Shown here piece by piece: positions 14,697-64,000 of a stretch of DNA of 64,000 bases. This stretch comes from Asterias amurensis (taxonomy: Eukaryota > Echinodermata > Asteroidea > Forcipulatida > Asteriidae): positions 6,650,391 to 6,714,390 of the forward strand of contig NC_092657.1 in assembly GCF_032118995.1 (NCBI RefSeq), written 5' to 3'. The notes beneath the pieces are model-generated. The model worked only from the letters and a program-made list of their open reading frames with translations. It was not told the origin of the DNA and did no database searches. The position numbers were made by a program, and so were the translations under genes. The number at the start of each line of letters is the position of its first letter. The first letter of the stretch is position 1.

Positions 14697-14698
14697 GG

Positions 14699-37820: not shown

Positions 37821-38830
37821 TACGGAGCTCCAGGAGTGCCATCCTACATAATGAGTTACCGACATAATTTATCTCATCAAGACGACTTATTTCGTGGTAT
37901 AAGTTAACTTACCGACATATTTTATCTTGCTAAGTCGACTTATTCAAAATAATAAGTCGACTTACTGACATAATTTAACTCACCAAGTCGACTTACTGAG
38001 AGTACTAAGTCGACTTACTGACATAATTTATCTCCCCAAGTCGGCTTACTGAGAGTACTAAGTCGACTTACTGACATAATTTATCTCACCAAGTTGACTT
38101 ACATATAGTACTAAGTCGACTTACTGACATAATTTATCTCACCAAGTCGACTTAGATAAAATATTAAGTAGACTTACTGACATAATTTATCTCACCAAGT
38201 CGGCTTACTGAGAGTACTAAGTCGACTAACTAACATAATTTATATCACCAAGTCGACTTAGATAAAATATTAAGTCGACTTACTGACATAATTTATCTCA
38301 CCAAGTCGACTTACTGAGAGTATTAAGTCGATTTACTGAGATAATTTAGCTCGCCAAGTCGACTTACTGAGAGTACTAAGTCGACTTACTGACATAATTT
38401 ATCTCACCAAGTCGGCTTACTGAGAGTACTAAGTCGACTAACTAACATAATTTATCTCACCAAGTCGACTTAGATAAAATATTAAGTCGACTTACTGACA
38501 TAATTTATCTCACCAAGTCGGCTTACTGAGAGTACTAAGTCGACTTACTGAGAGTACTAAGTTGACTAACTAACATAATTTATCTCACCAAGTCGACTTA
38601 GATAAAATATTAAGTCGACTTACTGACATAATTTATCTCACCAAGTCGGCTTACTGAGAGTACTAAGTCGACTTACTGACATAATTTATCTCCCGAAGTC
38701 GGCTTACTGAGAGTACTAAGTCGACTTACTGAAATAATTTAGCTCGCCAAGTCGACTTACTGGGAGTACTAAGTCGACTTACTGAAAAAATTATCGCGCC
38801 AAGTTGACTTACAGAAACCGAGAAGTCGAC
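37821..38830. repeat. 53-bp satellite array A1 (AAGTCGACTT palindromes)
   Basis: Opens with the element terminus, then alternates two half-units: AAGTCGACTTACTGACATAA then TTTATCTCACC (31 bp), and AAGTCGACTTACTGAGAGTA then CT (22 bp). Each half carries the 10-bp palindrome AAGTCGACTT. All units point the same way. Variants with GATAAAATATT or GTCGGCTT occur throughout. Arrays at 42,720 and 55,487 share the first about 170 bp almost exactly. Confidence 0.93.
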
Positions 38831-38934
38831 AGAAATCAATTGATTTAGACATGTTTGAACACGTCGTATGACAATAGTAGCATGCTTAACGTATGAAGAC
38901 ACACACCTCGCTCACACCAGTTAATTCTACCAAG

Positions 38935-41779
38935 ATGTACATGCGAACATCACTGCCAGTGTGCCTTCTGACGGTAAGTTGTGTGTTCTTAAATGCATAT
39001 TAATTAGTAATAACATGGGTTATCAAATTGCAGGACTGTGTAGTGTGTTCCTATGTCAAAAAGACCGTACGGTTTGTCATTCAGCACACCTTTTGAAAGT
39101 GAGACGCACAAAGCTCAACCTCCATGGTCTCCGGAAATGTCTCCGTTTTATTGTGAAGTTTCCTCCGTCATAATTATTATGACAAGTGATGTGTGTCAAT
39201 CAGTCCCATACAACAAAATATTGTAACTGCATGTTAAAACTTGCCAATAAATTATGGTGTATTGCGAAAAACACACAAGCCTACTGTAGCCTACATCATT
39301 TCTCCAAAATGTATTGTTGTTCATGTAAATTGCAACGTTTGGCATTGTTGAGGAAAACTGTTTTTATTACCAGAAGGTAAAACTTAATTACGTCTGTATA
39401 CTCGTCGTTATGCATACGTTAATAAGATCTACTTTATTGCAATGTAGTGTCAAATGCCTCCTGACTAAAACAATTGCGGATTGTATCTGTAATCGGTAAT
39501 ACTTCCTTTCAGCATGCCTCCTTAAAGGGAGTTAATACTTTTGGTAAATGTCAAAGAACAGTTTCCTCACTTGGTGTACATGGTGTATCCCAACATATAC
39601 ATGAATTAACAAACCTGTGAAAGTTTAAGTGTTTTCACTGTTTTCAAACATCAAGTTTTCGACTCATGAGATCAAAACTAATATTGTTTTATTCTTTTCT
39701 CAAAAACTATAGCATTTAATGCAAAATATTTCAAAAGCAGTATCCCATCATGACCATCTTTATACCATGTAAGTTATGTGTGAATCTGTGAACAAGTTAT
39801 ATTTTTTACTTTTTACCAATGTTACAAACACCCTTTAAAGGGTGTGTACAGCATTGGTAAGAATGAAAATATAAATGTTCACAGATTTACACATAACTTA
39901 CATGGTATAAAGATGGTCATGGTGGAAAACTTCCCTTGGAATAGTTTTGCTTGAAATGTCATAGTTTTTAGGAAAAGAAAAAATTAATGGTATTTATCCT
40001 GCAGGATAAATTTCGATGTTTGAAAAGAAGTTAAAACACATGAGGGTGTTTTTCACTGTTTTCTCATGGCTCCGAAGACCGATCGAGCTTAAATTTTCAC
40101 AGGTTTGTTATTTAATGTATTATGTTGGGTCACATCAAGTTTGGATACAGGTCTTTGGCAAGTACCAAATGCGAGTTTGCTTGGCTTCAAAGACCAGTAA
40201 AACCCAAAACCACATGTGAAAGTAGTTTTTTGTGAACCCCTGAGGAAAAAAACACAAAAAACACACACATTTCAGATGAACAAACTGGTGTGGCCCTACA
40301 GTAGGTGTATATGTGTATGCTAATTGTTTACATATACCGCCAGGCTTTTTTGCACGCATCATTTTTGCATTTATTTGTTTAAAGATACATTGCCCGTGTT
40401 TTGGTCGATGCAGGAAAAGTTTATTAGCTTTCATCTAATACCTGGAACGTAACATTGATTATGTTGTTGTTTTCTTCCAAAATTCCATTCAGATGTAATA
40501 CTATAAAATTTTACATTTTTTTTTTCAGATTGCACTACTGATGAAAGTGCCCTATGTGGCTGCGCCACTTGCAGGACAACCTTATACAGCAGCTGAGGTT
40601 GGGGGGCAGGTGGGTGCAACAAGAGAGGAGATTATCGCACACTACTTCATGGATGGTTATACGGCCTATGAAATCATAGGATTTTTGTATTTCTGTCACG
40701 GTATTAGCATTAGCCTTCGCCATCTAAGAAGACTACTGAGACAACTTGGTCTTCATCGGAGAAATGATTCCCCTCTTCAAGATGTGGTGGAAATCATGAT
40801 GACTGTTTTAAATGAAACATCAAGTGATCTTGGATATCGCTTCTTGTGGCGATTGTTGACCACTCGCTATCACCTTCGAGTATCTCAGCACACGGTCAGG
40901 AGATTACTTCGTGAACTTGACCCTGTAGGTGTGAGACTTCGATCAATTCGTCGCTTCAGACGCAGAAGATACGCAACTAAAGGGCCCAATTATTTGATTC
41001 ATGTAGACGGATTTGACAAACTCAAGCCATTCGGTATTTCAGTTCATGCAGCAATTGACGGTTATTCACGTCGAGTCCTCTGGATCAAAGTCGGGCTTTC
41101 AAATAAAGATCCAAGGTACATTGCCCATTTTTATATGGAACTAGTTCAGACATTACAGGGAGTTCCAAAAATTGTAAGAGCAGACAGAGGAACGGAAAAT
41201 GTTATTCTGCGCGATATTCAAGTTGCACTTAGGATGTATCACGAAGACTCATTCTGCGGGGAACGTAGTTTTATGTATGGACGCTCTACAGCTAATCAAC
41301 GTATTGAGGCATGGTGGTGTATCTTAAAGCGCATGAGCAGTGGTTTTTGGGTAAATTTCTTCAAAGATCTACGAGATATTGGAATTTTAGATACATCCAA
41401 CAACGTTCATATAGAATGCATCCGATTGGCGTTCACTCAACTGATACAGCGTGACTTTTCTAGAGTGGTTGAACTATGGAATCAGCACTTAATTCGAACT
41501 CAGCGAAATGTTGAGTGCCCAGCTGGTAAACCAGATGTCTTATATTTCCAGCCACAGATATATGGCACAAGAGACTATAGAATGCGACTTCACTATACTG
41601 CTGCTGAGTTGGAACAGGTGAAAATAGAATACTGTAAGCCATTGCCCGAACATGGATGTTCTCCAGACTTCTCTGCACTTCTTACTGAACTAGTAGGGGA
41701 TTTAAATCAATATACACTGCCGAATACAATCGAAGAGGGTTATAATTTATTTTGCTCACTTGTTGATTTGTTAGATTAA
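38935..41779 (+). CDS. IS3EU-type DDE transposase (integrase core), apparently intact
   Basis: Predicted to cut and join transposon ends in the nucleus. The main exon (40,529-41,779) holds a 412-codon frame from ATG 40,541. Residues 25-75 look like a first HTH (EIIAHYFMDGYTAYEIIGFL), and residues 97-130 (DLGYRFLWRLLTTRYHLRVS then QHTVRRLLRELD) match the IS3 HTH_21 pattern. The RNase-H-like core follows, with catalytic Asp156 (LIHVDGFDKLKPFG), Asp215 (VRADRGTEN) and Glu256 (NQRIEAWW), spacing D-58-D-40-E. The C-terminal part (WNQHLIRTQRNVECPAGKPD) is typical of this fish and invertebrate family. A possible 5' coding exon (38,935-38,973, donor ACG then GTAAGT) joins in frame to the acceptor TTTTTTTTTCAG at 40,528, adding 17 residues; ATG 40,541 is the alternative start. 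No stop interrupts the frame and all catalytic residues are present, so it may be recently active. Confidence 0.85.
39523..40215. repeat. Dispersed inverted repeats in the transposase 5' intron
   Basis: Two back-to-back blocks share TACATGGTATAAAGATGGTC and TTCACAGATTTACACATAACT words with opposite orientation (39,740-39,840 against 39,840-39,940), so they form a large inverted repeat centred near 39,838. The flanks read AAAGGGAGTTAATACTTTTGG and CAAACACCCTTTAAAGGGTGT. Confidence 0.6.
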
Positions 41780-42719
41780 TTCACAATAATACCTTGCTAG
41801 TGTGTTGTCATAGGATCATTCTGCGTCTTGCATGTAGCCTACAATGGCCAGGGTCCCGTTTCATAGAGCTATTTAGCAGATTTTATCAAGTTTTGTGAAT
41901 TACTGGGTCGAATATTGATGCTATTATGTAGCACATTATTATCATAAGAACAAAATTAAGTTTGAAAAAAAAAAACCATTTTGGGCCTTCCTGTTTTTTT
42001 TTTGCATAATTTTTGTTTTTCAAAAAAATGGTAGTCTTAAAAAGTAATAGGAAGGCACACAAAAGTAATAATAGTAAGACGTTCTTATAGAGCGCATTTC
42101 AGTTCTGGGAGAACTCTCAATGCGCTAGGTCACTTGCTGACATGACTGGATTCCTTGTGTGACGTCATATTGACGTAATCTATTCATAAGCTATTCCATG
42201 TTCTGGGACGGGTTTGACCATACAAAAGTATGAGTTATATGTATTGAAAACTTCTTTCATGAATATTATGTAAAAGGAATCTAGGGTTCTCCCATGCACA
42301 AGCTAGCGTATCGGGCCGATACGCAAATAAATTCTGCCGATACGCCAAAAAAAAGGGCCGATACGCCAAATTATTATTATTATTATTATTTTAAATACGG
42401 TAGTTTCACACAAAAGCATGAAAAGAAAACCGTATAGAATGCTCCAAATTGCACAGTAGGGCTTTGAAAACCATGAAAAACACAAAGAAGAAAGTATTCC
42501 GAAGACCTTGTTTCAATTCAGCATGCGTTGGCCAAACATCCCAAAACTTTGGCCCAGAATGCCCCACAGGGGCAGAACCCTGGGAACCACCCATGTCAGG
42601 TAAACAAATTTGCGCTGTGGTCTAGATGAAATGGCACGTTAGTTATACAAGCCTTGTATGTATGTATGAATAATACATTATACAAGTTCAGGGTGGACAC
42701 AGACTTTGTGGAGACAATC
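41780..42719. other. Downstream of the transposase; no gene seen
   Basis: Contains a fragment of the GCTTAAG MITE (GGGTCCCGTTTCATAGAGCT at 41,851), an ATT microsatellite (42,370-42,391) and three GGCCGATACGCC/GCCGATACGCC words at 42,312-42,368. The expected right end of the transposon was not recognised here. Confidence 0.45.
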
Positions 42720-43690
42720 TACGGAGCTCCAGGAGTGCCATCCTACATATTGAGTTACCGACATAATTTATCTCATCAAGACGACTTATTTCGTGGTATA
42801 AGTTAACTTACCGACATATTTTATCTTGCTGAGTCGACTTATTCAAAATAATAAGTCGACTTACTGACATAATTTAACTCACCAAGTCGACTTACTGAGA
42901 GTACTAAGTCGACTTACTGACATAATTTATCTCACCAAGTCGACTTACTGAAAGTACTAAGTCGACTTACTGACATAATTTATCTCACCAAGTCGGCTTA
43001 CTGAAAGTACTAAGTCGACTAACTAACATAATTTATCTCACCAAGTCGACTTAGATAAAATATTAAGTCGACTTACTGACATAATTTATCTCCCCAAGTC
43101 GGCTTACTGAGAGTACTAAGTCGACTTACTGACATAATTTATCTCACCAAGTCGACTTACTGAGGGTAATAAGTCTACTTACTGACATAATTTATCTCAC
43201 CAAGTCGACTTATTGAGAGTACTAAGTCGACTTACCGACATCTTTTATCTTGCTAAGTCGACTTATTCAAAATAATAAGTCGACTTACTGACATAATTTA
43301 TCTCACCAAGTCGGCTTACTGAGAGTACTAAATCGACTTACTGACATAATTTATCTCACCAAATCGGCTTAATGAGAGTACTAAGTCGACTTACTGACAT
43401 AATTTATCTCACCAAGTCGACTAACTGAGAGTAATAAGTCGACTTACTGAAATAATTTATCTCACCAAGTCGACTTACTGAGAGTAATAAGTCGACTTAC
43501 TGACATAATGTATCTCACCAAGTCGACTTAGATAAAATATTAAGTCGACTTACTGACATAATTTATCTCCCCAAGTCGACTTACTGGGAGTACTAAGTCG
43601 ACTTACTGACATAATTTATTATCTCACCAAGTCGACTTACTGAGAGTACTATGTCGACTTACTGACATAATTTATCTCACCAAGACAACT
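42720..43690. repeat. 53-bp satellite array A2 (AAGTCGACTT palindromes)
   Basis: Same terminus and unit as A1 in the same orientation. Differs from A1 in the order of variant units beyond the first about 170 bp, so it is not a simple recent copy of A1. It appears identical to A3 at 55,487. Confidence 0.93.
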
Positions 43691-44954
43691 TACACAAATA
43701 ATCTGAAGTTATACCTTTTGGCAAGTTCAGACACGTTTGGAACATGTGGTTTTCGCCACACGCAAGACGCAACCCGTTGTGTGTACATTAGTACTTGCAC
43801 TAGTACCTGATCAACAAGCGCGAAGAAGACACTGCAAAAGTCCTCGGGGGAGTCGAGACTAGATACTCGGTAGACTAGATACTGCAAACTCGGTAAGTTA
43901 AGTAAAGATCAGTACTAGACAAACCTGAGCTTGTTATAGGTTTCCTGTTTGTTCAATACATACTTAGTATATAACCATTGAGGTAGAATTCTACCCATGG
44001 TGGTTCCTGACACAAGCTTGAACTAAATTTGTACAGTTAATGATTCGAACGGTGTCGTATGCTGAGGTGAGTGCATGGAACATTGCATTTTTATTACAAT
44101 ATATTCAAATGAAATGAAAGATGTATTGACGTTATGTCAATGCTGTCATAATAAAGTTTATGTTTAGCTGAGTACATGAACATTCAATGAAAAATTAGCA
44201 AATAATGTAGTGAGACTGTCTTTTGGGTGTATAAAAGGCAAACATGAAAACCTGAAAATCACCATGGAAAATTAAGGAGTGATTTGATGGCACTGCCATG
44301 CGACTGCAGTAACATAATTATGAAAAGTACATGTAAACTGTGTGTGGTGGCCATTGCGTGTAACTAGCAGACTGCTGGTGGTGACCACATAATTTGTTTA
44401 GCTTCAACTCGTCGTTCGCGCAAATCTCTGCCCAGTTGTTTTGTTAAATCAAATCAATGTTTACTTTACTCTTTGTAATTGGCCACGATCTATTGGGGAG
44501 GGGGGGCAGAACATTCAAAAAGTCAATTTAGTGAAATAGTTAAGTAGTACCCACATGACCCACACACACCAACCCTAATAATTTATAATGCAGTGTTAAC
44601 AATGTCTAATTTTCTTAAGTGGATAGACCTAATTTTAACAACTTCTAAGCAATTAGTTAAAATTAGTTCGAGAACAGTTGATCCAGGATTTTTTTTTATC
44701 AGTGACGACCCAGAAATAGGTGTGGAAATTTTAATTCTCAGTTTTATAATTTTGCTTGTAAAACAATTTCCCAATTACTGAGAACCTTTTTGTGGTTCTG
44801 ATCACAGCTGCATTTTATAGTTTGTTATTACCGCATATAGACTGATTCAGTTTCAGTGATTGGTGGAAACTAGTACTAATATGTCAATGATGTGTACATC
44901 TTTATCACTGAAACCAGTCATAATATTATTAATCAGTGTGAAATTTACTTCCAG
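43691..44954 (+). promoter_or_regulatory. Putative promoter, 5' non-coding exon and intron 1 of the RING gene (copy A)
   Basis: A good donor (AAACTCG then GTAAGT) at 43,892/43,893 follows the satellite directly and resembles the one after array A1 at 38,973. The coding exon opens at the acceptor ATTTACTTCCAG at 44,954. A 5' exon just downstream of the array is therefore likely. Also contains a palindrome GAGGTAGAATTCTACCCA near 43,980. Confidence 0.35.
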
Positions 44955-44979
44955 GTAAAATATATCCAAGATAATAAAG

Positions 44980-47900
44980 ATGTCTTCAGAATCGGACTGT
45001 TCTGAATCTGAGGAAAAAGTGCCAGTACTGTTTACCTTTCTGGATCACACCAGAAAGGCCCTTGTTTCTAAGGGATGTGGCCTAAAGGAGGTCACTTGCA
45101 AAGTAATAGAGGTAAGCATTTACTCTTTTGCATAAGTAATTTTTATATGTTTAAAACTAAGCTAAGTGTTTTTTTTTATGGTAGACCCAGCACATTGATT
45201 TGTCAAAGACATTTTATGATTTATTATAAATTCACAAGTGTCACAATTTATACTGAATCATGAATTTTATAACAAAAGGTTACAAACGCTTTTTATACAC
45301 CAACTCGCCTGATCCAAGGCAACGTGTGCCTTTAATAAATATGACAAACATGTGAACGGCCCAAAAAAATTTATGCCAGAATAATGATCGCAGTCTTTAT
45401 CAAATTACATATGTTATAGAAAGTTAGAAAGAGTCTTTTTTTATGGCAGGGTATATATTTGGTAATTGTCAAAGACCAGTATCCTCACTTGGTGAAAAAA
45501 TAACAAACCTGTGAAAATTTAAGCTCACTTGATCAACAAATTTGCAAGAAAATAATGAAAATAAATGAATAAAAAATCACCTTTGCTACATTGTGTGCTT
45601 TCAGATGTCTGAGAAAGGCTTCATGCGTGAAGCCTTTCTCAGATTCAAATTTTGGCGTGAAAAAGTTTCTTTTTCTCTAAAACTCCATTACTTAAAAGGG
45701 GTCTTTTCTAACAATGTTTCATAATATCAACTGCTCTTCAGTGCTGACTGCTCTTCATCAAGTAAATTTGTATGGTTATTACTATGTGGTGTAACTACCA
45801 AGCAAAATTACACCCTGCCTTTGAGAGACAATTAACCATAATAATCTCCTCAAATATGTTTTGACTGCAATGTTTTGTTATAGACTTTCAAAGATGTTCT
45901 GGCAGATAATCAAGCAGATCTAATGATCATTAAATACTTCGATGACGAATGGAAAGAGTTCATTGATCTTCAAGATGAACCAACAATTTACAGCAAAACA
46001 AGGCTGCAAATTGGTAAGTGGAGTGGTTGTAAGAAAACCCAAGGCATGCTTTGGTTCTGCACAATTAATTAGGCCCTACTGAATAGAATAATAATGAAAA
46101 TGTCTGCCTGCGCACATTATTATTATTAAGACAGCACGCGCACCAACCTCACAGTGCGTTATATTCATATTATGAAGACTGCACTTTACCAAGATGAAAA
46201 TGCATTTGTTATTTATTAAACTTTTAATGCAAATTTGCTTAGAAACTGGTGCTGGAATAGGCGTTCATTGGACTAAGTAAATTTTTTGAAAAGCAATAAA
46301 TTGTCTAGTCAATTAGGCAAGATTATGTATTTAAAAAAATGTTTTTAATATTTATCATAGATTTGAAGCAAGACAACAAGAAACGTCTTAGCAAAGGTTT
46401 GTGAGTTTATAGAATGACTTTTTTAAAAACAATTTGTTATTAGTTATTGGTTGTTGTGTTTATGTCTGTTATTTTATTAGGCTTGGTAAATTATCTTATA
46501 GTAATACTTAACTAAAAGTACCCAAACAAATGAATGGTAAACTTTGTGTATGTAAATATTTTTGACAATTTGGAAGAAAAACATAAACAACAAAAATATC
46601 ACTGTGTAACCCTGTAACCAAACAAATACTTTGCCCTCGTTGCAATGGTGTATTAAAAAAAACATCTTGGTTGAAGAACCAAATTCTACTGCCACACTAT
46701 AAAAATAAGACTAAGAAATATTATGCGCCAAATCAATCAAAGAGATGTTCAAGGGGCAGAACTTGAGCTTATCCTAGAGACTTGTAAATATCTACAACAG
46801 AATCTACAACATTTCCCCCATTAATTTTTAATGGTTTCCTTGAAAATTGTATATTGTCTGTTGTGACAGTTCTGGAATCCTTAACTCATGCTATTATTTG
46901 TTAGGAAACTTTCCATTCCAAGTAAAAATGTATGTTTTCTAACAAATGATTTGGTGTATTTTATACAAATCATTCAGCCTTTGTTTAAAGAGAGGCATTC
47001 AAAGTTATTATGCAAAATGTTATGTTCAGCACCCAATTTAGCAGTGTGTAATATTTTCTATTTCCAACCCACTCTGTTTGCCTTCTGTAGCCCTCCTGGT
47101 TGATAATAAAAAAAATTTTGACTTATCAACAAAAGCAACAGGCAATCCCCAACAGAGTGATAGCGATGATGGAGAATCAGGTAAATAATTCAGTGTTACA
47201 AATTATTTATACTTATTTATTGGGCGTGCTATTCTTCCTACTTTAATCTGATTTTTGATTTGTTGTTACTAATTAACCTGAAAGGCTAGTGTCTAAGAAG
47301 CAGAATAAATGAGGCTGTTTGTCTTAACAGTTGTTTTTGGTTTATTTGCCAAAAAACGAACATTGTTCACAAATGACACTGTGCAAACAAGGTGCAGTGT
47401 TTTTACCAAAGTGATGTTCTGTTATTTAATAAAGGAATAAAAGAGTAGTGATGCGGTCTTAAACGGTCATTTCCGATTGGCAGATTTGTGGCCCAGCCAC
47501 AACCCTGCACTCTTTTATTCCAATTAATAAATACCCTTTTTGTTAAAAGCATAATAATTATGGGAAATTTGTAAAACTTCCATGCTTGGTAATTTTGAAT
47601 TGCTGTCGGCAGGCTTCATTGCGTGCATGGGCCTGATAGGTCAAATTACACGCCACACTCAATGGTTGTGCGTACATGCAGGCAAATGTACATTTTAAAA
47701 GGCACAGACAATGACCATGAAGGCATTTGCATACATTGCCTCTAAATATCAGGCTTGTCATTGAGGTGGTTGTCAAACCAGATGGTTTGCCCACCAGGTA
47801 GAGGGATTTGATGTCTAAAATTGTGACAATTTAACTCAGGTTTTTTTTTTTTTGTAGGGCCAAAACCACTATTGGCAAGCATGCTTCAACGCATCCGTGG

Positions 47901-50900
47901 GAAGTTTAAGGTAAGAATGTAAGAATGTATACATTGCTGCAGTATAGGCAACCTTGAGTTAATTATTAAGTTCTATTATAGATAGCTGGCCGGGTTGGCA
48001 ATTTGTGTGTAGGGGTTCGATCCATGTATAAAAAATTGTATTTGGATACTTCTACAGGCCCTTTTAGCAATTGCACTCATTATAAAATATAAGTGGTAGG
48101 GGATATCAACTGAATGTCATAAACATTTCTTGGGTTTTAATTGTGGACACTAGATATTGTTGACCTTGCTTTGGATAAATAAGTACTTGTTTAAAACATT
48201 AAATTGGTATATCAATACTTTTGCTGTAACCCTGCATGACCTTTACAAAGAACACATCACAACTTTGCCCACAAGCTTCCTCTCAGGAAGCAGGTGGGTT
48301 TAAGCATACGTTCATGTACTTTGCAACCCTGTATACAATCCTTTCTTCAAGGGTCTAAATACATGAATGGAGGTCCTTTTGACTTCCTTTAAACCAAAGA
48401 TCCGGACCCCCACCCAAACCCTCTGCATTAGCCACAGTTCTGCTGATTCTAATCACGCCCACATTGCTGGCATACGTTCAAATACCTTTAAAACAGTTTA
48501 AAACAGCAGCATTCTAAAAATAGCCACCTGACCACTCCCCTCCCCCTCAAATAAAAAAATTAAAAAATAAAAAAAATAAAAAAATAAGAATATACCTTTG
48601 TCTGCTAGTCCCACTTGAATGTGAAGGATGACAAATAATTATACCCTTTTTTGTATCACTTATGTCTGGCAGGCTGAACCGACAGCTTCAGCAAGCAGTA
48701 CCAAAAAGATAAGCCCATCAGTCAAAATTCAAGTAGGATGGCTGCATATGAATAATAAGCTGAAAGATTATACACAGGTGCGCTGCCAGAAAGGAGGAGG
48801 AGTCCGATATTTAACGTGCGACCGCAAGGCAACCTATGTCCAGCTGCTTGAGGGTTGTGTGCCACTTTTCTTCCCTGCAGGGGAATCTTCAAAAGGGCCC
48901 CGCAGTAAGATGGAATTCAGCCTGGCCAACTTTCAAGGACATGAAATAGAGAAAGAGGACTTTGACTTAAGCACTGTTTATGGAGAAAAGGGATCAAAGA
49001 CAAGAATATACATCAAAACTAAAGAAATACAGGTGTGGCAATGATTTAGTTTGTTTTAAGTATAGGTTTTTTCCCGGTAATTTTCGGCAAATACGCGGCC
49101 TATTTCACTTTCGTGCATTTGTATTAAAGCAATTTAGCCTACTCGGTTTAAAGCGTCATTCAATTGCATGTAGAGGCAAGCAAATTTATACAGCATAACA
49201 TTAAATTTAGAAGAGTAGGACCAACTTCAGATTTGTACAAAACTGTTACTTTCGTTTTCGTTAAGCGCAAATCAATTTGTCATACTTAGCATTACAAAAA
49301 AATCACTAAGAAACAGTTGCAAATCATAGGTTTATCTGTTTTTTCTGTTTCTTTGATTCTTTTCTTTGCTTCATTTTTTTATGTTTCTTTGTTTCTATAT
49401 TCATGTTTCTTTGTTTCTTTATTTTTGCGTCTTTATTACTGTTTCTGTGTTTCAATGATTCTCATACAACTACTCAACCGTTTTTATACCTTTTAAATTC
49501 TAGGAGGGGTGACAATAATATCAGAGCAACAAAGCGTCAATTCAAATGCACAATTCCCTTAAATGCCGGTCTGAAAATTAATTCGAATGACCAAGTGCAC
49601 GCCAGAAAATGCTGCTGTGAATTTGAATGCTGTTCGACTGGTTTGTTAAATCGAATGGTGTTTGTTGCTTATCGCATGATGCAAAAGAACGCTTGCTTAT
49701 AAAATACATATAGTGAAGTTAAATGACTGCACAAAATGGTATGACGCTACATTTTAATAGGCCGCTTATTTGCCAAAAAAGACTGGGAAAACCTATAATA
49801 TATAAAAATCTGTTTTATAAGTATATTGTTCACTTTTGGTTATTAACAAAGGTTTTTGGTATGAATTTTAGGGTGGTAAATATTTACTGTATCTGTTGAC
49901 AAAATATGTGCAAGTGCTTTTACATGGCAATCAAGGTACTTGTGCATGGGCCTGGTACTCTCTTGTCACTAAAGGGGGTATTGGGCATGCTCATGATCTC
50001 ATTGGTTGCCCAGTGAAATGTGAAAGGTTACCATAGTGCCAAGAACGACCATTTAATACTCACCATCTTGAGGCATATTTCTGACTTAAATTAGTCCTTT
50101 TACAAGCACATACAATTCTTTTTGTTTGAATGATCCAGCCGTGTAGGCAATCCTGAGGACTATTTTATATTTTATATTAGTATTTTAGCAATTTTTCAAA
50201 ACATTTGTTTCAAAATTGATGCACACTTGATGCATCAACATTTTACAAACCTTCAAACTTGTACATTGGCTCTGACCCCCCCCCCCCCAATAAGTACTAT
50301 TTGTAAGACTGTTAAAAGTTTGAAAATTTGGACGGCCCCAAGATTAGTGCGTGTAACATTTAACAGATTGCAGAGTTGAAACAATCGTACAGTGTAATAA
50401 TTGCCACTATTGAAAGATTGCATAAAAGCAGTTAAATAATGTTTTATTTCAATGATTTTAGAAGGATAACTCTTCAAGTAGCTCATCAAGCTTGGAAGAG
50501 GTTCCATTTGACCTTGAACACCAAGATTCATCTTTCTTTGATTTGGATACACCTACAGTAAGTACACACTATATATCAGTCAGTCGACAATACATTTGTT
50601 CATAACAGCGGGTCCTTGTTCATAATAAGGGTTTTAACAACACTCTGACCTTTGAGGTGAGTTTTGAATAAAGACACATCTTTATGACTAAATTTAACCC
50701 CTCAGTACACCTCATTGCACCTTGGCTCCTAAAGTGAATGCCCTTATCACAATCAGAGCTGATCAATGCTAAGTATGTCTGTATACCCCTTCTTTCTTGT
50801 TCTGAATTGCCAGGGTGGTATAGTTGATTGTTCAACACCAGGGTACAAGTATTACTTAATCAGTATATTTAAACAGCATGGAATAAAACAAAAAAATGAT

Positions 50901-51261: not shown

Positions 51262-51269
51262 TATTGGGG

Positions 51270-52045
51270 TAAAAACAGGACACTACTAAGGTACAGGACA
51301 CTACTATAGTATCAGGGTATAACATGACTACTCGGGTATGATCATCAATAGTATCAGGGTTTAAACAGCACATTACTCAGGTATGATCATCAATAGTATC
51401 AGGGTGTAAACAGCACATTACTCGGGTATGATCATCAATAGTATCAGGGTGTAAACAGCACATTACTCGGGTATGATCATCAATAGTATCAGGGTGTAAA
51501 CATCACATTACTCGGGTATGATCATCAATAGTATCAGGGTGTAAACAGCACATTACTCGGGTATGATCATCAATAGTATCAGGGTGTAAACAGCACATTA
51601 CTCGGGTATGATCATCAATAGTATCAGGGTGTAAACAGCACATTACTCAGGTATGATCATCAATAGTATCAGGGTGTAAACAGCACATTACTCAGGTATG
51701 ATCATCAATAGTATCAGGGTGTAAACAGCACATTACTCGGGTATGATCATCAATAGTATCAGGGTGTAAACATCACATTACTCGGGTATGATCATCAATA
51801 GTATCAGGGTGTAAACAGCACATTACTCAGGTATGATCATCAATAGTATCAGGGTGTAAACAGCACATTACTCAGGTATGATCATCAATAGTATCAGGGT
51901 GTAAACAGCACATTACTCAGGTATGATCATCAATAGTATCAGGGTGTAAACAGCACATTACTCGGGTATGATCAATAGTATCAGGGTATAAACATCACAT
52001 TACTCGGATATGATCAACAATAGTATCAGGGTGTAAACATGCCTT
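51270..52045. repeat. 45-bp minisatellite right after the RING-gene stop (about 16 units)
   Basis: Units of CTCGGGTATGATCATCAATA, GTATCAGGGTGTAAACAGCA, CATTA run from just after the TAG at 51,261, so they would lie in the 3' UTR. Variation is limited to CTCAGG/CTCGGG and CAGCAC/CATCAC, plus truncated units at both edges. Confidence 0.93.
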
Positions 52046-52199: not shown

Positions 52200-53425
52200 A
52201 CTACAAACACTATACTATGATGGAACCTAAATTATGTTTACGACCAAATTTCAATCTGAAATGATTCATATGTTGGTATGGTTACCATTTACTCTTCAAA
52301 TTATTTTATGATAAAACCTAAATTATGTTTATGACCAAATCTCAATCTGAAATGATTTAAATGTTAATATAGTTACTATTTACTTTACAAATTATTTAAT
52401 GATAAAATCTAAATTATGTTCATGACCAAATCTCAATCTGAAATGATTTAAATGTTAATATGGTTACTATTTACTCTACAAATTATTTTATGATAAAACC
52501 TAAACAATGTTTATGACCAAATTTCAATCTGAAATGATTCATAATTATGTTGATATGGTTACCATTTACTCTTCAAATTATTTTATGATAAAACCTAAAT
52601 TATGTTTATGACCAAATCTCAATCTGAAATGATTTAAATGTTAATATAGTTACTGTTTACTCTACAAATTGTTTTATGATAAAACCTAAATTATGTTTAT
52701 GACCAAATCTCAATCTGAAATGATTTAAATGTTAATATGTTACTATTTACTTTACAAATTATTTAATGATAAAATCTAAATTATGTTCATGACCAAATCT
52801 CAATCTGAAATGATTTAAATGTTAATATGGTTACTATTTACTCTACAAATTATTTTATGATAAAACCTAAATTATGTTTATGACCAAATTTCAATCTGAA
52901 ATGATTCATATGTTGATATGGTTACCATTTACTCTTCAAATTATTTTATGATAAAACCTAAATTATGTTTATGACCAAATCTCAATCTGAAATGATTTAA
53001 ATGTTAATATAGTTACTGTTTACTCTACAAATTGTTTTATGATAAAACCTAAATTATGTTTATGACCAAATCTCAATCTGAAATGATTTAAATGTTAATA
53101 TGTTACTATTTACTTTACAAATTATTTAATGATAAAATCTAAATTATGTTCATGACCAAATCTCAATCTGAAATGATTTAAATGTTAATATGGTTACTAT
53201 TTACTCTACAAATTATTTTATGATAAAACCTAAATTATGTTTATGACCAAATCTCAATCTGAAATGATTCATATGTTGATATGGTTACCATTTACTCTTC
53301 AAATTATTTTATGATAAAACCTAAATTATGTTTATGACCAAATCTCAATCTGAAATGATTTAAATGTTTATATGGTTACTCTTTACTACATACTTTATAA
53401 TATTTTCATTTATGAAACCTAAATT
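52200..53425. repeat. 91-bp AT-rich tandem array with a 364-bp higher-order period
   Basis: Each unit carries CCTAAATTATGTTTATGACC then AAATCTCAATCTGAAATGAT, spaced about 90-92 bp, about 13-14 units. Groups of four recur: the variant AGTTACTGTTTACTCTACAA appears near 52,648 and again 364 bp later near 53,012, with matching neighbours. That is higher-order repeat structure like that of larger satellites. Confidence 0.9.
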
Positions 53426-53945: not shown

Positions 53946-53948
53946 TCT

Positions 53949-53966
53949 GCCACTAGAGGGCAGCAG
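53949..53966 (+). promoter_or_regulatory. Strong CTCF-type motif
   Basis: GCCACTAGAGGGCAGCAG matches the bilaterian CTCF core (CCASYAGRKGGCRSY) at every position of the core. A weaker, oppositely oriented candidate lies at 54,386-54,404. The motif is within the duplicated block. Confidence 0.55.
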
Positions 53967-55486
53967 ACCTACCAGGTAAGGGTGCACAACTCCTATAGCA
54001 AACAATGGTAAATGCTAAAAATTAAAAAGTACTCAAAAAATATTTAGAAGTCTCTCAGCCTCTTGAAAATTAAATCAGATACATTGTCATACAACTAAAC
54101 TTCAGATTTCTTTTGGTAGGTCAGCATTTTGGAATTTTTGCTAATTACTCTAGAAGAAACACTCCCAGAAACTCATGCACACCGCTTGTTATCCATGGGG
54201 AACTCGTGTCCAGTACGTCCTGTTCCAGAACAGTTCGGTTTATGCTGGCAATGTGTTATGAAAAACAAAATACAGTTTGGCTAAATCTAAATACAAAATC
54301 AAAAACACGCAAAACACAAGGTATTTGCTGTCAGTGACCGTCACTCATGCTTCTCCTATTCCTAAGTTGTTGACATAACCTGGTGAAGAGCGCCCTCTCT
54401 TGGTGACTGGCAGATAGTCTAAAGTTCCCCATTGATCTACTAGTCGATTAAATGCAATAGAGATCAGTGGTTGGGGGATGCAGCGCAAAGGTGTTCTGAC
54501 ATTAGGCGTTGGGACTGAACATAAAAGGACTCTCACGAGATTGGGACTTGAGTCAAGTCTACCCAAATACACGTACAATCATACAACACTGCGTGATGTG
54601 ATGTCACTGCTGCCATGGTCTATATTTATGTAGACCTGCAAAGCTTTGGGTTTGCATAATAAACATAAATTTATCTGGAGATTTACAAAAAATTCTCTCA
54701 AGAAATACAGAGAAAAAACGACAGTCGAAGATGGAATTTCAAAAATAAAAAGTCATTGTCAGCTTGAGGGCCTTTCTATACCCATATATCGAAAGATCAT
54801 TCGGGGTCTACGCCCGGACCGCCCCCTTTATGTGACCCGAAGAGAAGGATTGTTTGTAATAGTGCGTTTTTTTTAAAGGTAAAATGCTAAATAATTTCAA
54901 AGTGTTATCTTTGAAAAATGTCCCACCCTTCTGACATTTCAGATCCGCCGCTATGGGCTATGCAAATAATATATTTTCGGCAGCAGACTGAAAACGAACA
55001 ATCCGACAAGACAGGACAAACACAACTAAAAAGGAAAAGGAAACAATAACATTTTTATTAACATGACGATTTATTTGAATTGTTAAGGTATAAAATAAAA
55101 GAAAAATAAAGTCCATATAGCCTTTCCAAATGAAATTGACTTTTAGCCCAGCCCCCCCCCCCCCCGAGTACCACTAGTTTATATAGTTTGAACATTATTA
55201 ACAATATTTATATTATAATGACAACACTATGATTGTGGAGATATCTAGACCAAAATGACTGTGAAGGGAGACTTATGCCTTCACCTTGTGTACTTGTTAC
55301 TAGTTCCGTCTTAATAATTCAAAGGAAAGTAAATTTCAGTCCCTTTTTTGTAAATTCATACAACTTCAAGTGAAGCCTATGACATTGTAAATAAATCACG
55401 ACCCACACACCTTTCATGCTGCTATGCTTTATTTAAAGTTGAAGAATGGAATTGAGAAGAATAAACCAAACCCATGAATTGATTGT
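53967..55486. other. End of the first duplicated block, no gene seen
   Basis: Short open frames (54,113-54,337, 54,345-54,578, 54,646-54,876) show no domain and no consistent splicing. A poly-C run lies at about 55,148-55,164. The end abuts array A3 directly. Confidence 0.45.
54386..54404 (-). promoter_or_regulatory. Weak CTCF-like motif, opposite orientation
   Basis: On the minus strand TCACCAAGAGAGGGCGCTC fits the core except at the two variable middle positions. Listed because it lies 420 bp from, and faces, the strong site. Confidence 0.25.
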
Positions 55487-56457
55487 TACGGAGCTCCAGG
55501 AGTGCCATCCTACATATTGAGTTACCGACATAATTTATCTCATCAAGACGACTTATTTCGTGGTATAAGTTAACTTACCGACATATTTTATCTTGCTGAG
55601 TCGACTTATTCAAAATAATAAGTCGACTTACTGACATAATTTAACTCACCAAGTCGACTTACTGAGAGTACTAAGTCGACTTACTGACATAATTTATCTC
55701 ACCAAGTCGACTTACTGAAAGTACTAAGTCGACTTACTGACATAATTTATCTCACCAAGTCGGCTTACTGAAAGTACTAAGTCGACTAACTAACATAATT
55801 TATCTCACCAAGTCGACTTAGATAAAATATTAAGTCGACTTACTGACATAATTTATCTCCCCAAGTCGGCTTACTGAGAGTACTAAGTCGACTTACTGAC
55901 ATAATTTATCTCACCAAGTCGACTTACTGAGGGTAATAAGTCTACTTACTGACATAATTTATCTCACCAAGTCGACTTATTGAGAGTACTAAGTCGACTT
56001 ACCGACATCTTTTATCTTGCTAAGTCGACTTATTCAAAATAATAAGTCGACTTACTGACATAATTTATCTCACCAAGTCGGCTTACTGAGAGTACTAAAT
56101 CGACTTACTGACATAATTTATCTCACCAAATCGGCTTAATGAGAGTACTAAGTCGACTTACTGACATAATTTATCTCACCAAGTCGACTAACTGAGAGTA
56201 ATAAGTCGACTTACTGAAATAATTTATCTCACCAAGTCGACTTACTGAGAGTAATAAGTCGACTTACTGACATAATGTATCTCACCAAGTCGACTTAGAT
56301 AAAATATTAAGTCGACTTACTGACATAATTTATCTCCCCAAGTCGACTTACTGGGAGTACTAAGTCGACTTACTGACATAATTTATTATCTCACCAAGTC
56401 GACTTACTGAGAGTACTATGTCGACTTACTGACATAATTTATCTCACCAAGACAACT
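55487..56457. repeat. 53-bp satellite array A3 (AAGTCGACTT palindromes)
   Basis: Looks base-for-base the same as A2, including rare variants such as the extra TTA in AATTTATTATCTC and the GGGTAATAAGTCTAC unit. Same orientation as A1 and A2. Confidence 0.93.
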
Positions 56458-57746
56458 TACACAAATAATCTGAAGTTATACCTTTTGGCAAGTTCAGACA
56501 CGTTTGGAACATGTGGTTTTCGCCACACGCAAGACGCAACCCGTTGTGTGTACATTAGTACTTGCACTAGTACCTGATCAACAAGCGCGAAGAAGACACT
56601 GCAAAAGTCCTCGGGGGAGTCGAGACTAGATACTCGGTAGACTAGATACTGCAAACTCGGTAAGTTAAGTAAAGATCAGTACTAGACAAACCTGAGCTTG
56701 TTATAGGTTTCCTGTTTGTTCAATACATACTTAGTATATAACCATTGAGGTAGAATTCTACCCATGGTGGTTCCTGACACAAGCTTGAACTAAATTTGTA
56801 CAGTTAATGATTCGAACGGTGTCGTATGCTGAGGTGAGTGCATGGAACATTGCATTTTTATTACAATATATTCAAATGAAATGAAAGATGTATTGACGTT
56901 ATGTCAATGCTGTCATAATAAAGTTTATGTTTAGCTGAGTACATGAACATTCAATGAAAAATTAGCAAATAATGTAGTGAGACTGTCTTTTGGGTGTATA
57001 AAAGGCAAACATGAAAACCTGAAAATCACCATGGAAAATTAAGGAGTGATTTGATGGCACTGCCATGCGACTGCAGTAACATAATTATGAAAAGTACATG
57101 TAAACTGTGTGTGGTGGCCATTGCGTGTAACTAGCAGACTGCTGGTGGTGACCACATAATTTGTTTAGCTTCAACTCGTCGTTCGCGCAAATCTCTGCCC
57201 AGTTGTTTTGTTAAATCAAATCAATGTTTACTTTACTCTTTGTAATTGGCCACGATCTATTGGGGAGGGGGGGCAGAACATTCAAAAAGTCAATTTAGTG
57301 AAATAGTTAAGTAGTACCCACATGACCCACACACACCAACCCTAATAATTTATAATGCAGTGTTAACAATGTCTAATTTTCTTAAGTGGATAGACCTAAT
57401 TTTAACAACTTCTAAGCAATTAGTTAAAATTAGTTCGAGAACAGTTGATCCAGGATTTTTTTTTATCAGTGACGACCCAGAAATAGGTGTGGAAATTTTA
57501 ATTCTCAGTTTTATAATTTTGCTTGTAAAACAATTTCCCAATTACTGAGAACCTTTTTGTGGTTCTGATCACAGCTGCATTTTATAGTTTGTTATTACCG
57601 CATATAGACTGATTCAGTTTCAGTGATTGGTGGAAACTAGTACTAATATGTCAATGATGTGTACATCTTTATCACTGAAACCAGTCATAATATTATTAAT
57701 CAGTGTGAAATTTACTTCCAGGTAAAATATATCCAAGATAATAAAG

Positions 57747-60700
57747 ATGTCTTCAGAATCGGACTGTTCTGAATCTGAGGAAAAAGTGCCAGTACTGTTT
57801 ACCTTTCTGGATCACACCAGAAAGGCCCTTGTTTCTAAGGGATGTGGCCTAAAGGAGGTCACTTGCAAAGTAATAGAGGTAAGCATTTACTCTTTTGCAT
57901 AAGTAATTTTTATATGTTTAAAACTAAGCTAAGTGTTTTTTTTTATGGTAGACCCAGCACATTGATTTGTCAAAGACATTTTATGATTTATTATAAATTC
58001 ACAAGTGTCACAATTTATACTGAATCATGAATTTTATAACAAAAGGTTACAAACGCTTTTTATACACCAACTCGCCTGATCCAAGGCAACGTGTGCCTTT
58101 AATAAATATGACAAACATGTGAACGGCCCAAAAAAATTTATGCCAGAATAATGTGCGCAGTCTTTATCAAATTACATATGTTATAGAAAGTTAGAAAGAG
58201 TCTTTTTTTATGGCAGGGTATATATTTGGTAATTGTCAAAGACCAGTATCCTCACTTGGTGAAAAAATAACAAACCTGTGAAAATTTAAGCTCACTTGAT
58301 CAACAAATTTGCAAGAAAATAATGAAAATAAATGAATAAAAAATCACCTTTGCTACATTGTGTGCTTTCAGATGTCTGAGAAAGGCTTCATGCGTGAAGC
58401 CTTTCTCAGATTCAAATTTTGGCGTGAAAAAGTTTCTTTTTCTCTAAAACTCCATTACTTAAAAGGGGTCTTTTCTAACAATGTTTCATAATATCAACTG
58501 CTCTTCAGTGCTGACTGCTCTTCATCAAGTAAATTTGTATGGTTATTACTATGTGGTGTAACTACCAAGCAAAATTACACCCTGCCTTTGAGAGACAATT
58601 AACCATAATAATCTCCTCAAATATGTTTTGACTGCAATGTTTTGTTATAGACTTTCAAAGATGTTCTGGCAGATAATCAAGCAGATCTAATGATCATTAA
58701 ATACTTCGATGACGAATGGAAAGAGTTCATTGATCTTCAAGATGAACCAACAATTTACAGCAAAACAAGGCTGCAAATTGGTAAGTGGAGTGGTTGTAAG
58801 AAAACCCAAGGCATGCTTTGGTTCTGCACAATTAATTAGGCCCTACTGAATAGAATAATAATGAAAATGTCTGCCTGCGCACATTATTATTATTAAGACA
58901 GCACGCGCACCAACCTCACAGTGCGTTATATTCATATTATGAAGACTGCACTTTACCAAGATGAAAATGCATTTGTTATTTATTAAACTTTTAATGCAAA
59001 TTTGCTTAGAAACTGGTGCTGGAATAGGCGTTCATTGGACTAAGTAAATTTTTTGAAAAGCAATAAATTGTCTAGTCAATTAGGCAAGATTATGTATTTA
59101 AAAAAATGTTTTTAATATTTATCATAGATTTGAAGCAAGACAACAAGAAACGTCTTAGCAAAGGTTTGTGAGTTTATAGAATGACTTTTTTAAAAACAAT
59201 TTGTTATTAGTTATTGGTTGTTGTGTTTATGTCTGTTATTTTATTAGGCTTGGTAAATTATCTTATAGTAATACTTAACTAAAAGTACCCAAACAAATGA
59301 ATGGTAAACTTTGTGTATGTAAATATTTTTGACAATTTGGAAGAAAAACATAAACAACAAAAATATCACTGTGTAACCCTGTAACCAAACAAATACTTTG
59401 CCCTCGTTGCAATGGTGTATTAAAAAAAACATCTTGGTTGAAGAACCAAATTCTACTGCCACACTATAAAAATAAGACTAAGAAATATTATGCGCCAAAT
59501 CAATCAAAGAGATGTTCAAGGGGCAGAACTTGAGCTTATCCTAGAGACTTGTAAATATCTACAACAGAATCTACAACATTTCCCCCATTAATTTTTAATG
59601 GTTTCCTTGAAAATTGTATATTGTCTGTTGTGACAGTTCTGGAATCCTTAACTCATGCTATTATTTGTTAGGAAACTTTCCATTCCAAGTAAAAATGTAT
59701 GTTTTCTAACAAATGATTTGGTGTATTTTATACAAATCATTCAGCCTTTGTTTAAAGAGAGGCATTCAAAGTTATTATGCAAAATGTTATGTTCAGCACC
59801 CAATTTAGCAGTGTGTAATATTTTCTATTTCCAACCCACTCTGTTTGCCTTCTGTAGCCCTCCTGGTTGATAATAAAAAAAATTTTGACTTATCAACAAA
59901 AGCAACAGGCAATCCCCAACAGAGTGATAGCGATGATGGAGAATCAGGTAAATAATTCAGTGTTACAAATTATTTATACTTATTTATTGGGCGTGCTATT
60001 CTTCCTACTTTAATCTGATTTTTGATTTGTTGTTACTAATTAACCTGAAAGGCTAGTGTCTAAGAAGCAGAATAAATGAGGCTGTTTGTCTTAACAGTTG
60101 TTTTTGGTTTATTTGCCAAAAAACGAACATTGTTCACAAATGACACTGTGCAAACAAGGTGCAGTGTTTTTACCAAAGTGATGTTCTGTTATTTAATAAA
60201 GGAATAAAAGAGTAGTGATGCGGTCTTAAACGGTCATTTCCGATTGGCAGATTTGTGGCCCAGCCACAACCCTGCACTCTTTTATTCCAATTAATAAATA
60301 CCCTTTTTGTTAAAAGCATAATAATTATGGGAAATTTGTAAAACTTCCATGCTTGGTAATTTTGAATTGCTGTCGGCAGGCTTCATTGCGTGCATGGGCC
60401 TGATAGGTCAAATTACACGCCACACTCAATGGTTGTGCGTACATGCAGGCAAATGTACATTTTAAAAGGCACAGACAATGACCATGAAGGCATTTGCATA
60501 CATTGCCTCTAAATATCAGGCTTGTCATTGAGGTGGTTGTCAAACCAGATGGTTTGCCCACCAGGTAGAGGGATTTGATGTCTAAAATTGTGACAATTTA
60601 ACTCAGGTTTTTTTTTTTTTGTAGGGCCAAAACCACTATTGGCAAGCATGCTTCAACGCATCCGTGGGAAGTTTAAGGTAAGAATGTAAGAATGTATACA

Positions 60701-63700
60701 TTGCTGCAGTATAGGCAACCTTGAGTTAATTATTAAGTTCTATTATAGATAGCTGGCCGGGTTGGCAATTTGTGTGTAGGGGTTCGATCCATGTATAAAA
60801 AATTGTATTTGGATACTTCTACAGGCCCTTTTAGCAATTGCACTCATTATAAAATATAAGTGGTAGGGGATATCAACTGAATGTCATAAACATTTCTTGG
60901 GTTTTAATTGTGGACACTAGATATTGTTGACCTTGCTTTGGATAAATAAGTACTTGTTTAAAACATTAAATTGGTATATCAATACTTTTGCTGTAACCCT
61001 GCATGACCTTTACAAAGAACACATCACAACTTTGCCCACAAGCTTCCTCTCAGGAAGCAGGTGGGTTTAAGCATACGTTCATGTACTTTGCAACCCTGTA
61101 TACAATCCTTTCTTCAAGGGTCTAAATACATGAATGGAGGTCCTTTTGACTTCCTTTAAACCAAAGATCCGGACCCCCACCCAAACCCTCTGCATTAGCC
61201 ACAGTTCTGCTGATTCTAATCACGCCCACATTGCTGGCATACGTTCAAATACCTTTAAAACAGTTTAAAACAGCAGCATTCTAAAAATAGCCACCTGACC
61301 ACTCCCCTCCCCCTCAAATAAAAAAATTAAAAAATAAAAAAAATAAAAAAATAAGAATATACCTTTGTCTGCTAGTCCCACTTGAATGTGAAGGATGACA
61401 AATAATTATACCCTTTTTTGTATCACTTATGTCTGGCAGGCTGAACCGACAGCTTCAGCAAGCAGTACCAAAAAGATAAGCCCATCAGTCAAAATTCAAG
61501 TAGGATGGCTGCATATGAATAATAAGCTGAAAGATTATACACAGGTGCGCTGCCAGAAAGGAGGAGGAGTCCGATATTTAACGTGCGACCGCAAGGCAAC
61601 CTATGTCCAGCTGCTTGAGGGTTGTGTGCCACTTTTCTTCCCTGCAGGGGAATCTTCAAAAGGGCCCCGCAGTAAGATGGAATTCAGCCTGGCCAACTTT
61701 CAAGGACATGAAATAGAGAAAGAGGACTTTGACTTAAGCACTGTTTATGGAGAAAAGGGATCAAAGACAAGAATATACATCAAAACTAAAGAAATACAGG
61801 TGTGGCAATGATTTAGTTTGTTTTAAGTATAGGTTTTTTCCCGGTAATTTTCGGCAAATACGCGGCCTATTTCACTTTCGTGCATTTGTATTAAAGCAAT
61901 TTAGCCTACTCGGTTTAAAGCGTCATTCAATTGCATGTAGAGGCAAGCAAATTTATACAGCATAACATTAAATTTAGAAGAGTAGGACCAACTTCAGATT
62001 TGTACAAAACTGTTACTTTCGTTTTCGTTAAGCGCAAATCAATTTGTCATACTTAGCATTACAAAAAAATCACTAAGAAACAGTTGCAAATCATAGGTTT
62101 ATCTGTTTTTTCTGTTTCTTTGATTCTTTTCTTTGCTTCATTTTTTTATGTTTCTTTGTTTCTATATTCATGTTTCTTTGTTTCTTTATTTTTGCGTCTT
62201 TATTACTGTTTCTGTGTTTCAATGATTCTCATACAACTACTCAACCGTTTTTATACCTTTTAAATTCTAGGAGGGGTGACAATAATATCAGAGCAACAAA
62301 GCGTCAATTCAAATGCACAATTCCCTTAAATGCCGGTCTGAAAATTAATTCGAATGACCAAGTGCACGCCAGAAAATGCTGCTGTGAATTTGAATGCTGT
62401 TCGACTGGTTTGTTAAATCGAATGGTGTTTGTTGCTTATCGCATGATGCAAAAGAACGCTTGCTTATAAAATACATATAGTGAAGTTAAATGACTGCACA
62501 AAATGGTATGACGCTACATTTTAATAGGCCGCTTATTTGCCAAAAAAGACTGGGAAAACCTATAATATATAAAAATCTGTTTTATAAGTATATTGTTCAC
62601 TTTTGGTTATTAACAAAGGTTTTTGGTATGAATTTTAGGGTGGTAAATATTTACTGTATCTGTTGACAAAATATGTGCAAGTGCTTTTACATGGCAATCA
62701 AGGTACTTGTGCATGGGCCTGGTACTCTCTTGTCACTAAAGGGGGTATTGGGCATGCTCATGATCTCATTGGTTGCCCAGTGAAATGTGAAAGGTTACCA
62801 TAGTGCCAAGAACGACCATTTAATACTCACCATCTTGAGGCATATTTCTGACTTAAATTAGTCCTTTTACAAGCACATACAATTCTTTTTGTTTGAATGA
62901 TCCAGCCGTGTAGGCAATCCTGAGGACTATTTTATATTTTATATTAGTATTTTAGCAATTTTTCAAAACATTTGTTTCAAAATTGATGCACACTTGATGC
63001 ATCAACATTTTACAAACCTTCAAACTTGTACATTGGCTCTGACCCCCCCCCCCCAATAAGTACTATTTGTAAGACTGTTAAAAGTTTGAAAATTTGGACG
63101 GCCCCAAGATTAGTGCGTGTAACATTTAACAGATTGCAGAGTTGAAACAATCGTACAGTGTAATAATTGCCACTATTGAAAGATTGCATAAAAGCAGTTA
63201 AATAATGTTTTATTTCAATGATTTTAGAAGGATAACTCTTCAAGTAGCTCATCAAGCTTGGAAGAGGTTCCATTTGACCTTGAACACCAAGATTCATCTT
63301 TCTTTGATTTGGATACACCTACAGTAAGTACACACTATATATCAGTCAGTCGACAATACATTTGTTCATAACAGCGGGTCCTTGTTCATAATAAGGGTTT
63401 TAACAACACTCTGACCTTTGAGGTGAGTTTTGAATAAAGACACATCTTTATGACTAAATTTAACCCCTCAGTACACCTCATTGCACCTTGGCTCCTAAAG
63501 TGAATGCCCTTATCACAATCAGAGCTGATCAATGCTAAGTATGTCTGTATACCCCTTCTTTCTTGTTCTGAATTGCCAGGGTGGTATAGTTGATTGTTCA
63601 ACACCAGGGTACAAGTATTACTTAATCAGTATATTTAAACAGCATGGAATAAAACAAAAAAATGATCACCCCCCCCCCCCCGAGTAAAATCCACAAAAGA

Positions 63701-64000
63701 TTCGTAAAACAAGAAAAGATTTGTAATGGATATTTTAAAACTGTTTTCTCCCTGCAGGTGTCCTTTAAGAGGAAGAGGATGGTTGTCAACGATGGTCAAC
63801 AACCTTCATGTAGTTTTACCAATTCTGGACCAACACCATCACCACCATCTTCAATGGACCAACACAAGAAAGACTGCAGAATCTGTTACGACAGAAACCA
63901 AGACTCTTTCCTCATCCCATGTGGACATAAACTGTGTGCTGTGTGCGCTGTGGCCATAGAGGAACAGAAGCAGGGGTGTCCCTTTTGCAAAGAAACTATC
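57747..64000 (+). CDS. RING-finger protein, copy B, 3' end outside the window
   Basis: Exons at 57,747-57,878, 58,651-58,780, 59,128-59,163, 59,858-59,947, 60,625-60,677, 61,440-61,799, 63,228-63,323 and 63,758 to beyond 64,000 repeat those of copy A with all splice sites intact. I saw no amino-acid difference in the visible exons. The last visible bases are inside the RING exon, after the final Cys pair. Both copies therefore look able to make the same protein, and expression data could not tell them apart except through the poly-C and intron differences. Confidence 0.75.
58029..58102. mobile_element. Family X MITE fragment (copy B)
   Basis: Duplicate of 45,262-45,335; the insertion predates the duplication. 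Confidence 0.7.
58213..58589 (+). mobile_element. Family Y MITE (copy B)
   Basis: Duplicate of 45,446-45,822, including the perfect 16-bp-arm hairpin at about 58,374-58,409. Confidence 0.7.

Follow-up and report, generated by a model that had tools for sequence, protein, structure and literature searches.

In the available text of their published descriptions, IS3EU elements have TA..TA ends and usually produce 6-bp target duplications (PMC10045372), and members from rust fungi possess inverted repeats longer than 30 bp with ends of the form TAYGG..CCRTA (PMC12730594). IS3EU elements with accessory genes are already known. The accessible part of the fungal report describes elements carrying TET/JBP and alpha-kinase genes, of which TET/JBP has been proposed to aid escape from silencing (PMC12730594). 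Outside this group, Helitron/Helentron elements are described, in the accessible portion of the source, as encoding VTD and OTU deubiquitinases (PMC9741609). Titles and abstract openings of the literature on IS3EU and ubiquitin hold nothing on transposon cargo, and searches of the literature outside Repbase and subscription journals yielded no report of a RING gene in IS3EU.

The locus described here lies in a stretch of 64,000 nt from Asterias amurensis (NC_092657.1), referred to as the window, and all coordinates are window positions. Three blocks in this window, E1, E2, and E3, open with the same terminus (Table 1). E1 contains a gene for an IS3-like transposase, and E2 and E3 contain a spliced gene for a RING protein; this gene probably travels with the transposon family as a passenger. 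Elsewhere in the window, the open frames at 14669-15682 and 23330-24274 match zf-TRAF_2 (2.8e-33) and F-box_4 (4.8e-19) and are presumed by us to belong to an FBXO30/FBXO40-like host gene. A 50-bp satellite is present at 19871-21589 (34.4 copies, 96% matches). Scans of the window with Rfam at gathering scores and with ARAGORN for tRNAs found none.

Table 1. Features of the three blocks and of the sequence between them.
Feature	Position	Strand	Basis and remarks
Left terminus of E1 (TACGGAGCTCCAGGAGTGCC)	37821..37840	+	Word search; left flank unrelated to those of E2 and E3
Subterminal array of E1, 53-bp unit with 10-bp palindrome AAGTCGACTT	37856..38812	+	37 sites at two mismatches or fewer, 21 exact
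Possible 5' intron of transposase gene (GTAAGT ... T-run CAG)	38974..40528	+	Picked by eye; predicted from sequence
IS3EU-like DDE transposase, 412 aa	40541..41779	+	Open frame, Pfam
Left terminus of E2	42720..42739	+	Word search
Subterminal array of E2, homologous to E1 array	42755..43693	+	35 sites at two mismatches or fewer, 22 exact
Possible 5'-UTR intron of RING gene (GTAAGT ... TTCCAG)	43893..44954	+	Picked by eye; predicted
RING gene exon 1 (start codon, acidic head)	44980..45111	+	Splice model
RING gene exon 2	45884..46013	+	Splice model
RING gene exon 3	46361..46396	+	Splice model
RING gene exon 4	47091..47180	+	Splice model
RING gene exon 5	47858..47910	+	Splice model
RING gene exon 6, GGGVR module	48673..49032	+	Splice model; nothing in Pfam at cut-off, PDB matches not credible
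RING gene exon 7	50462..50557	+	Splice model
RING gene exon 8, C-terminal C3HC4 RING (PF13920) and stop codon	50992..51261	+	Splice model, Pfam
45-bp satellite	51306..52039	+	Starts about 45 bp past RING stop codon; like the 91-bp satellite, a further, unrelated one
91-bp satellite	52216..53387	+	Between RING gene and E3
Block E3, near-identical copy of E2 from terminus to window end (8514 bp)	55487..64000	+	Sequence comparison; RING gene cut 27 nt early

The Shared Left Terminus

An earlier note on this DNA, made from the sequence alone, had described three blocks that open with an identical 20-bp word followed by some 1 kb of AAGTCGACTT satellite, and both a word search and a repeat scan confirm this. 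The word occurs exactly three times in the window, always on the + strand and always at the start of a block, and no fourth copy was found on either strand of the window with up to four substitutions allowed. Each copy is followed by an array of about 1 kb whose 53-bp unit is built on the palindrome AAGTCGACTT; that of E3 spans 55522-56460, and that of E1 extends to 38847 in a 159-bp repeat row.

The shared termini are real boundaries. The 200-bp left flanks of the three blocks, compared without gaps, are 22.5-28% identical, which is chance level. To the right of the boundary, E1 and E2 show 4 differing positions within their first 230 bp and can be aligned up to the end of the array, past which their interiors are unrelated except for one small palindromic repeat. 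E2 and E3, head-to-tail blocks whose starts lie 12,767 bp from each other, align over 8514 bp, the sole differences being a single dinucleotide change and a single homopolymer indel. Their similarity begins exactly at TACGG, the same base at which the similarity between E1 and E2 begins, and their left flanks differ. The terminus is thus a true boundary, together with which the RING gene was moved or copied. Given the near identity of E2 and E3, the two RING-gene blocks of the earlier note are both present in the window, but they represent a single lineage that was copied very recently rather than two independent examples. The small repeat common to the interiors of E1 and E2 is MITE-like and is located at 39522-39629, together with 40050-40170, in E1 and at 45440-45561 in E2.

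Within the arrays of E1 and E2, the AAGTCGACTT sites are spaced by 22 and 31 bp in alternation, with few exceptions. The possibility that the palindromes form a constrained binding array was considered and rejected, as the 10-mer has 0.05 mismatches per base, a rate biased low because sites were picked at two mismatches or fewer, and does not exceed the 21-nt spacer, at 0.05-0.06, in conservation; greater variability, at 0.19-0.21, was seen in the 12-nt spacer. Rigid helical phasing along the whole array was not found with five repeats tried in the range of 10.0-11.0, from which 10.6, a fifth of the unit, was left out, and coherence was low (R 0.04-0.28). Neither selection nor rigid phasing is claimed for the array. 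Just 3′ of the arrays are sequences that resemble p53-family response elements (38847-38866 in E1; 43719-43738 and 43729-43749 in E2). Counted post hoc, the window contains four such sites at two mismatches or fewer (one in E1, one in E2, its copy in E3, and one other); the site at 43729 has three mismatches, and 11 sites in the window are that good or better. The similarity of E1 and E2 just 3′ of the arrays is not significant, with a best local score of 14 that was matched by 238 of 2000 shuffles.

The Transposase of E1

The intact IS3-like DDE transposase that the earlier note had placed in one of the blocks is borne out by the open frame of E1. This frame (40499-41779) remains open for 426 codons, and the longest frame in 300 mononucleotide shuffles of 40001-42000 has 148. 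The encoded protein matches the Pfam families rva_4 (5.4e-32) and HTH_21, both above their cut-offs, along with partial matches to IS481 (4.9e-10) and IS3 (1.6e-7) that fall far below the curated cut-offs. A search of PDB sequences gave no match up to E 0.1. D156, D215, and E256 are the putative catalytic residues, assigned from motifs by inspection. A single-sequence AlphaFold model of the protein (pLDDT 36.5) was of no use and was discarded. The TACGG left end at all three blocks agrees with both the TA..TA and the TAYGG rules of IS3EU. Judged by the protein profiles and this end, the transposase and the left end of E1 fit IS3EU as published, and E1 probably belongs to this group.

The RING Gene of E2 and E3

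The gene in E2 consists of eight exons with boundaries picked by eye, and all seven introns begin with GT and end with AG. The spliced product of 1167 nt is open to the stop codon and encodes 388 aa. The E3 protein is identical to that of E2 over the 380 residues that lie within the window, and its last 27 nt fall beyond the window end. The C-terminal RING matches PF13920 at 2.7e-11 (43.5 bits, cut-off 27), and all eight zinc ligands are present by inspection. Its sequence matches in PDB are CBL-B (9.1e-8), BIRC7 (5.6e-7), and MEX3C (3.7e-6). The last zinc Cys is followed, at a distance of 11 residues, by a Phe that probably occupies the place of the aromatic residue that contacts donor ubiquitin in the tails of IAP and MDM2.

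The earlier note had read this gene as encoding a ubiquitin-like or CIDE-N-like head, a GGGVR module, and a RING. The spliced gene and its RING stand, the latter in the profile search that the note had proposed, but no Pfam model matches the other two parts at cut-off. The spliced head gave no match to CIDE-N, PB1, ubiquitin-like, or any other Pfam model up to E=10, which leaves the note's view of it unsupported. Searched on its own, exon 2 reaches MSV199 at E 0.078, short of the cut-off, and the best PDB sequence match of the head, an epimerase at E 0.018, is not credible. Pfam likewise yields nothing for the GGGVR exon up to E=10; the longer frame around it matches LysM3_NFP at E 0.15, below the cut-off, and the best PDB match of the exon (E 0.36) is not credible. 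This frame is long at 139 codons, yet that length was reached in 4 of 300 shuffles. A single-sequence AlphaFold model of the module (pLDDT 37.8) was discarded as useless. Since neither the head nor the GGGVR exon has a credible match in Pfam or PDB, the labels CIDE-N-like and G2E3-like are impressions. According to the earlier note, IS3EU-type elements of fish and invertebrates travel with genes for G2E3-like HECT ligases that have a similar Gly-rich module; the protein found here has no Pfam match to a HECT domain up to E=10.

Between the 91-bp satellite and E3, at 53950-53963 and 54390-54410, are two sequences in opposite orientations that, judged by eye, look CTCF-core-like.

Right Ends and Element Membership

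The earlier note had proposed one element family using two block types. The shared boundary and the RING stretch copied from the terminus speak for this proposal; right ends, target-site duplications, and a block carrying both the transposase and the RING gene were not found in the window. The inverted terminus was searched for throughout the window and was absent, as the best CCRTA-anchored match, among 67 CCRTA on the + strand, agrees at 13 of 20 positions and lies outside the blocks at 23433. TA followed by an exact repeat of the 6-bp left flank was found neither in 41780-42720 for E1 nor in 51234-55487 for E2. At a looser threshold, the E1 flank has no TA-preceded match of 5/6 or 6/6 in 41780-42720, the E2 flank has two of 5/6 in 51234-55487, and the E3 flank has nine of 5/6 in 51234-64000, three of which lie to the left of E3 and are irrelevant; a CCRTA end accompanies none of these matches. 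Of the CCRTA sites behind the blocks, the best repeats three of six flank bases, and exact flank 6-mers that lack a preceding TA do occur. The stretches behind the two genes have only AT-rich noise and one palindromic repeat in common, with no right end shared by E1 and E2, and the right side of E3 falls beyond the window end. The lack of a right end, an inverted terminus, and a 6-bp target duplication in the stretches searched leaves membership of E1 and E2/E3 in one element unproven.

The reading we favor, with moderate confidence, is that of IS3EU/GingerRoot-type sister elements with a common left end, in which E1 carries the transposase and E2 and E3, at least 8.5 kb long, carry the RING gene as a passenger and are moved by an E1-type transposase. 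The missing right ends would mean either that the blocks are nested, with ends past the window, or that the ends have been lost. Nesting also allows for a single large element that encodes both genes, with E3 inside E2 inside E1 in the same orientation and every right end past 64000. E2 and E3 would then have their own transposase past 55486, E1 would be internally deleted or separate, and the RING gene would be an accessory gene in cis, as are the TET/JBP and alpha-kinase genes in the accessible account of fungal IS3EU elements (PMC12730594). This arrangement predicts the lack of a right end for E1 or E2 in the window. However, it requires three nested insertions in one orientation, and no remnant of a transposase is present in 42720-55486; tblastn of the transposase against the window returned only the transposase itself and one 11-residue chance match near 9826 (E 5.7). 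We consider this arrangement unlikely.

A host origin of the RING gene is less probable again. A transposon end would have been inserted upstream of a host gene, and a segmental duplication with its breakpoint at that end would have produced E3. The many introns of the gene, the head-to-tail arrangement of E2 and E3 at their 12,767-bp distance, and the lack of a right end in the window are all compatible with such a history. Against it, the match between E2 and E3 opens at the exact base where that between E1 and E2 opens, and the flanks differ, so a breakpoint falling there by chance is improbable unless the transposase itself cut at the terminus.

An explanation of the 1-kb satellite end as a small element of its own, or as a promoter-rich satellite, unrelated to either gene is very improbable; the arrays do stop near the end of the similarity between E1 and E2, but E3 comprises the terminus, the array, and about 7.5 kb behind it, copied as one piece, which already weakens this explanation. 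That E3 is a false assembly duplicate of E2 is hardly credible, for despite the near identity and the location of one of the two differences in a homopolymer run, the differing left flanks join exactly at TACGG, which needs two real junctions whatever path the assembler took, and E1 supplies a third.

A Proposed Mechanism

Under the favored reading of sister elements, E1 would represent the left portion of an element that bears the transposase, and E2 and E3 would be recent copies of a sister element in which a complete RING E3 ligase gene replaces the transposase. The E1-type transposase would recognize the shared TACGG end and move both element types, presumably acting in trans on the RING-bearing one. 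Inspection by eye places a GTAAGT donor no more than about 200 bp from the array end in E1 as well as in E2, and an acceptor 12-25 bp ahead of each start codon. Each gene thus seems to start with a leading exon just inside the array. Since both would start there, the array may double as a shared promoter region, and array and end together would serve the two sister elements as a transposase-recognized terminus and a promoter. By analogy with the TET/JBP proteins (PMC12730594) and deubiquitinases (PMC9741609) that transposons carry, the RING protein, as a putative ligase, would most likely ubiquitinate either a host factor that limits transposition, whether through chromatin silencing or through repair, or the transposase itself, in which case it would set copy number.

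A tentative extension of this scheme, which we think rather unlikely as a whole, is a split two-component transposon. The separate sister elements, with their common left end and promoter-proximal array, would be switched on together, share one transposase, and supply the ligase in trans against host defense or the transposase.

Comparison with Known Systems

Relatives of the locus were sought in two further collections. No relative of the transposase, terminus, transposase motif, or satellite was found in a viral contig collection, in which the GGGVR stretch gave six pattern matches, none of them confirmed, and none of the transposase motif or satellite was found in prokaryote genome contigs. 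Three viral-collection contigs that matched another short motif were rejected, their tblastn matches being at chance level (E of at least 0.51 for the transposase and at least 0.055 for the RING protein).

If true, IS3EU cargo in the form of a separate RING ligase would bring ubiquitination, in animals, into a set that already includes the TET/JBP dioxygenases of transposons, which have been proposed as erasers of silencing marks, and their deubiquitinases. Given the near identity of E2 and E3 and the open frames of both genes, activity of the element today is conceivable, and its function is therefore open to testing. The closest described system is IS3EU/GingerRoot, as given in the accessible text of its descriptions, which shares with this locus an IS3/IS481-like DDE transposase, the TA..TA and TAYGG rules that TACGG matches, and, in fungal members, the presence of accessory genes (PMC10045372, PMC12730594). 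The locus differs in that its RING E3 passenger occupies a block of its own and its left end bears a 1-kb palindrome satellite, and the right end, inverted repeat, and 6-bp target-site duplication were not found here within the window. The fungal elements with TET/JBP and alpha-kinase genes likewise place extra genes in IS3EU, but as far as the available text states, their dioxygenase and kinase genes adjoin the transposase in one element (PMC12730594), whereas the RING protein is encoded on a sister block.

Among RING proteins, the CBL, IAP, and MEX3C E3 ligases have the same C3HC4 RING, and the Phe past the last zinc Cys resembles that of IAP and MDM2 tails, whereas the remainder of the protein described here falls under every Pfam cut-off. 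RAG1 and Chapaev also exemplify RING domains encoded by DNA transposons, but theirs are part of the transposase, and the RING of E2 and E3 belongs to a separate spliced gene. The VTD and OTU deubiquitinases of Helitron/Helentron elements are, like the putative ligase, ubiquitin-system enzymes borne by transposons (PMC9741609), although, in the accessible portion of that source, they remove ubiquitin rather than attach it and belong to another transposon class.
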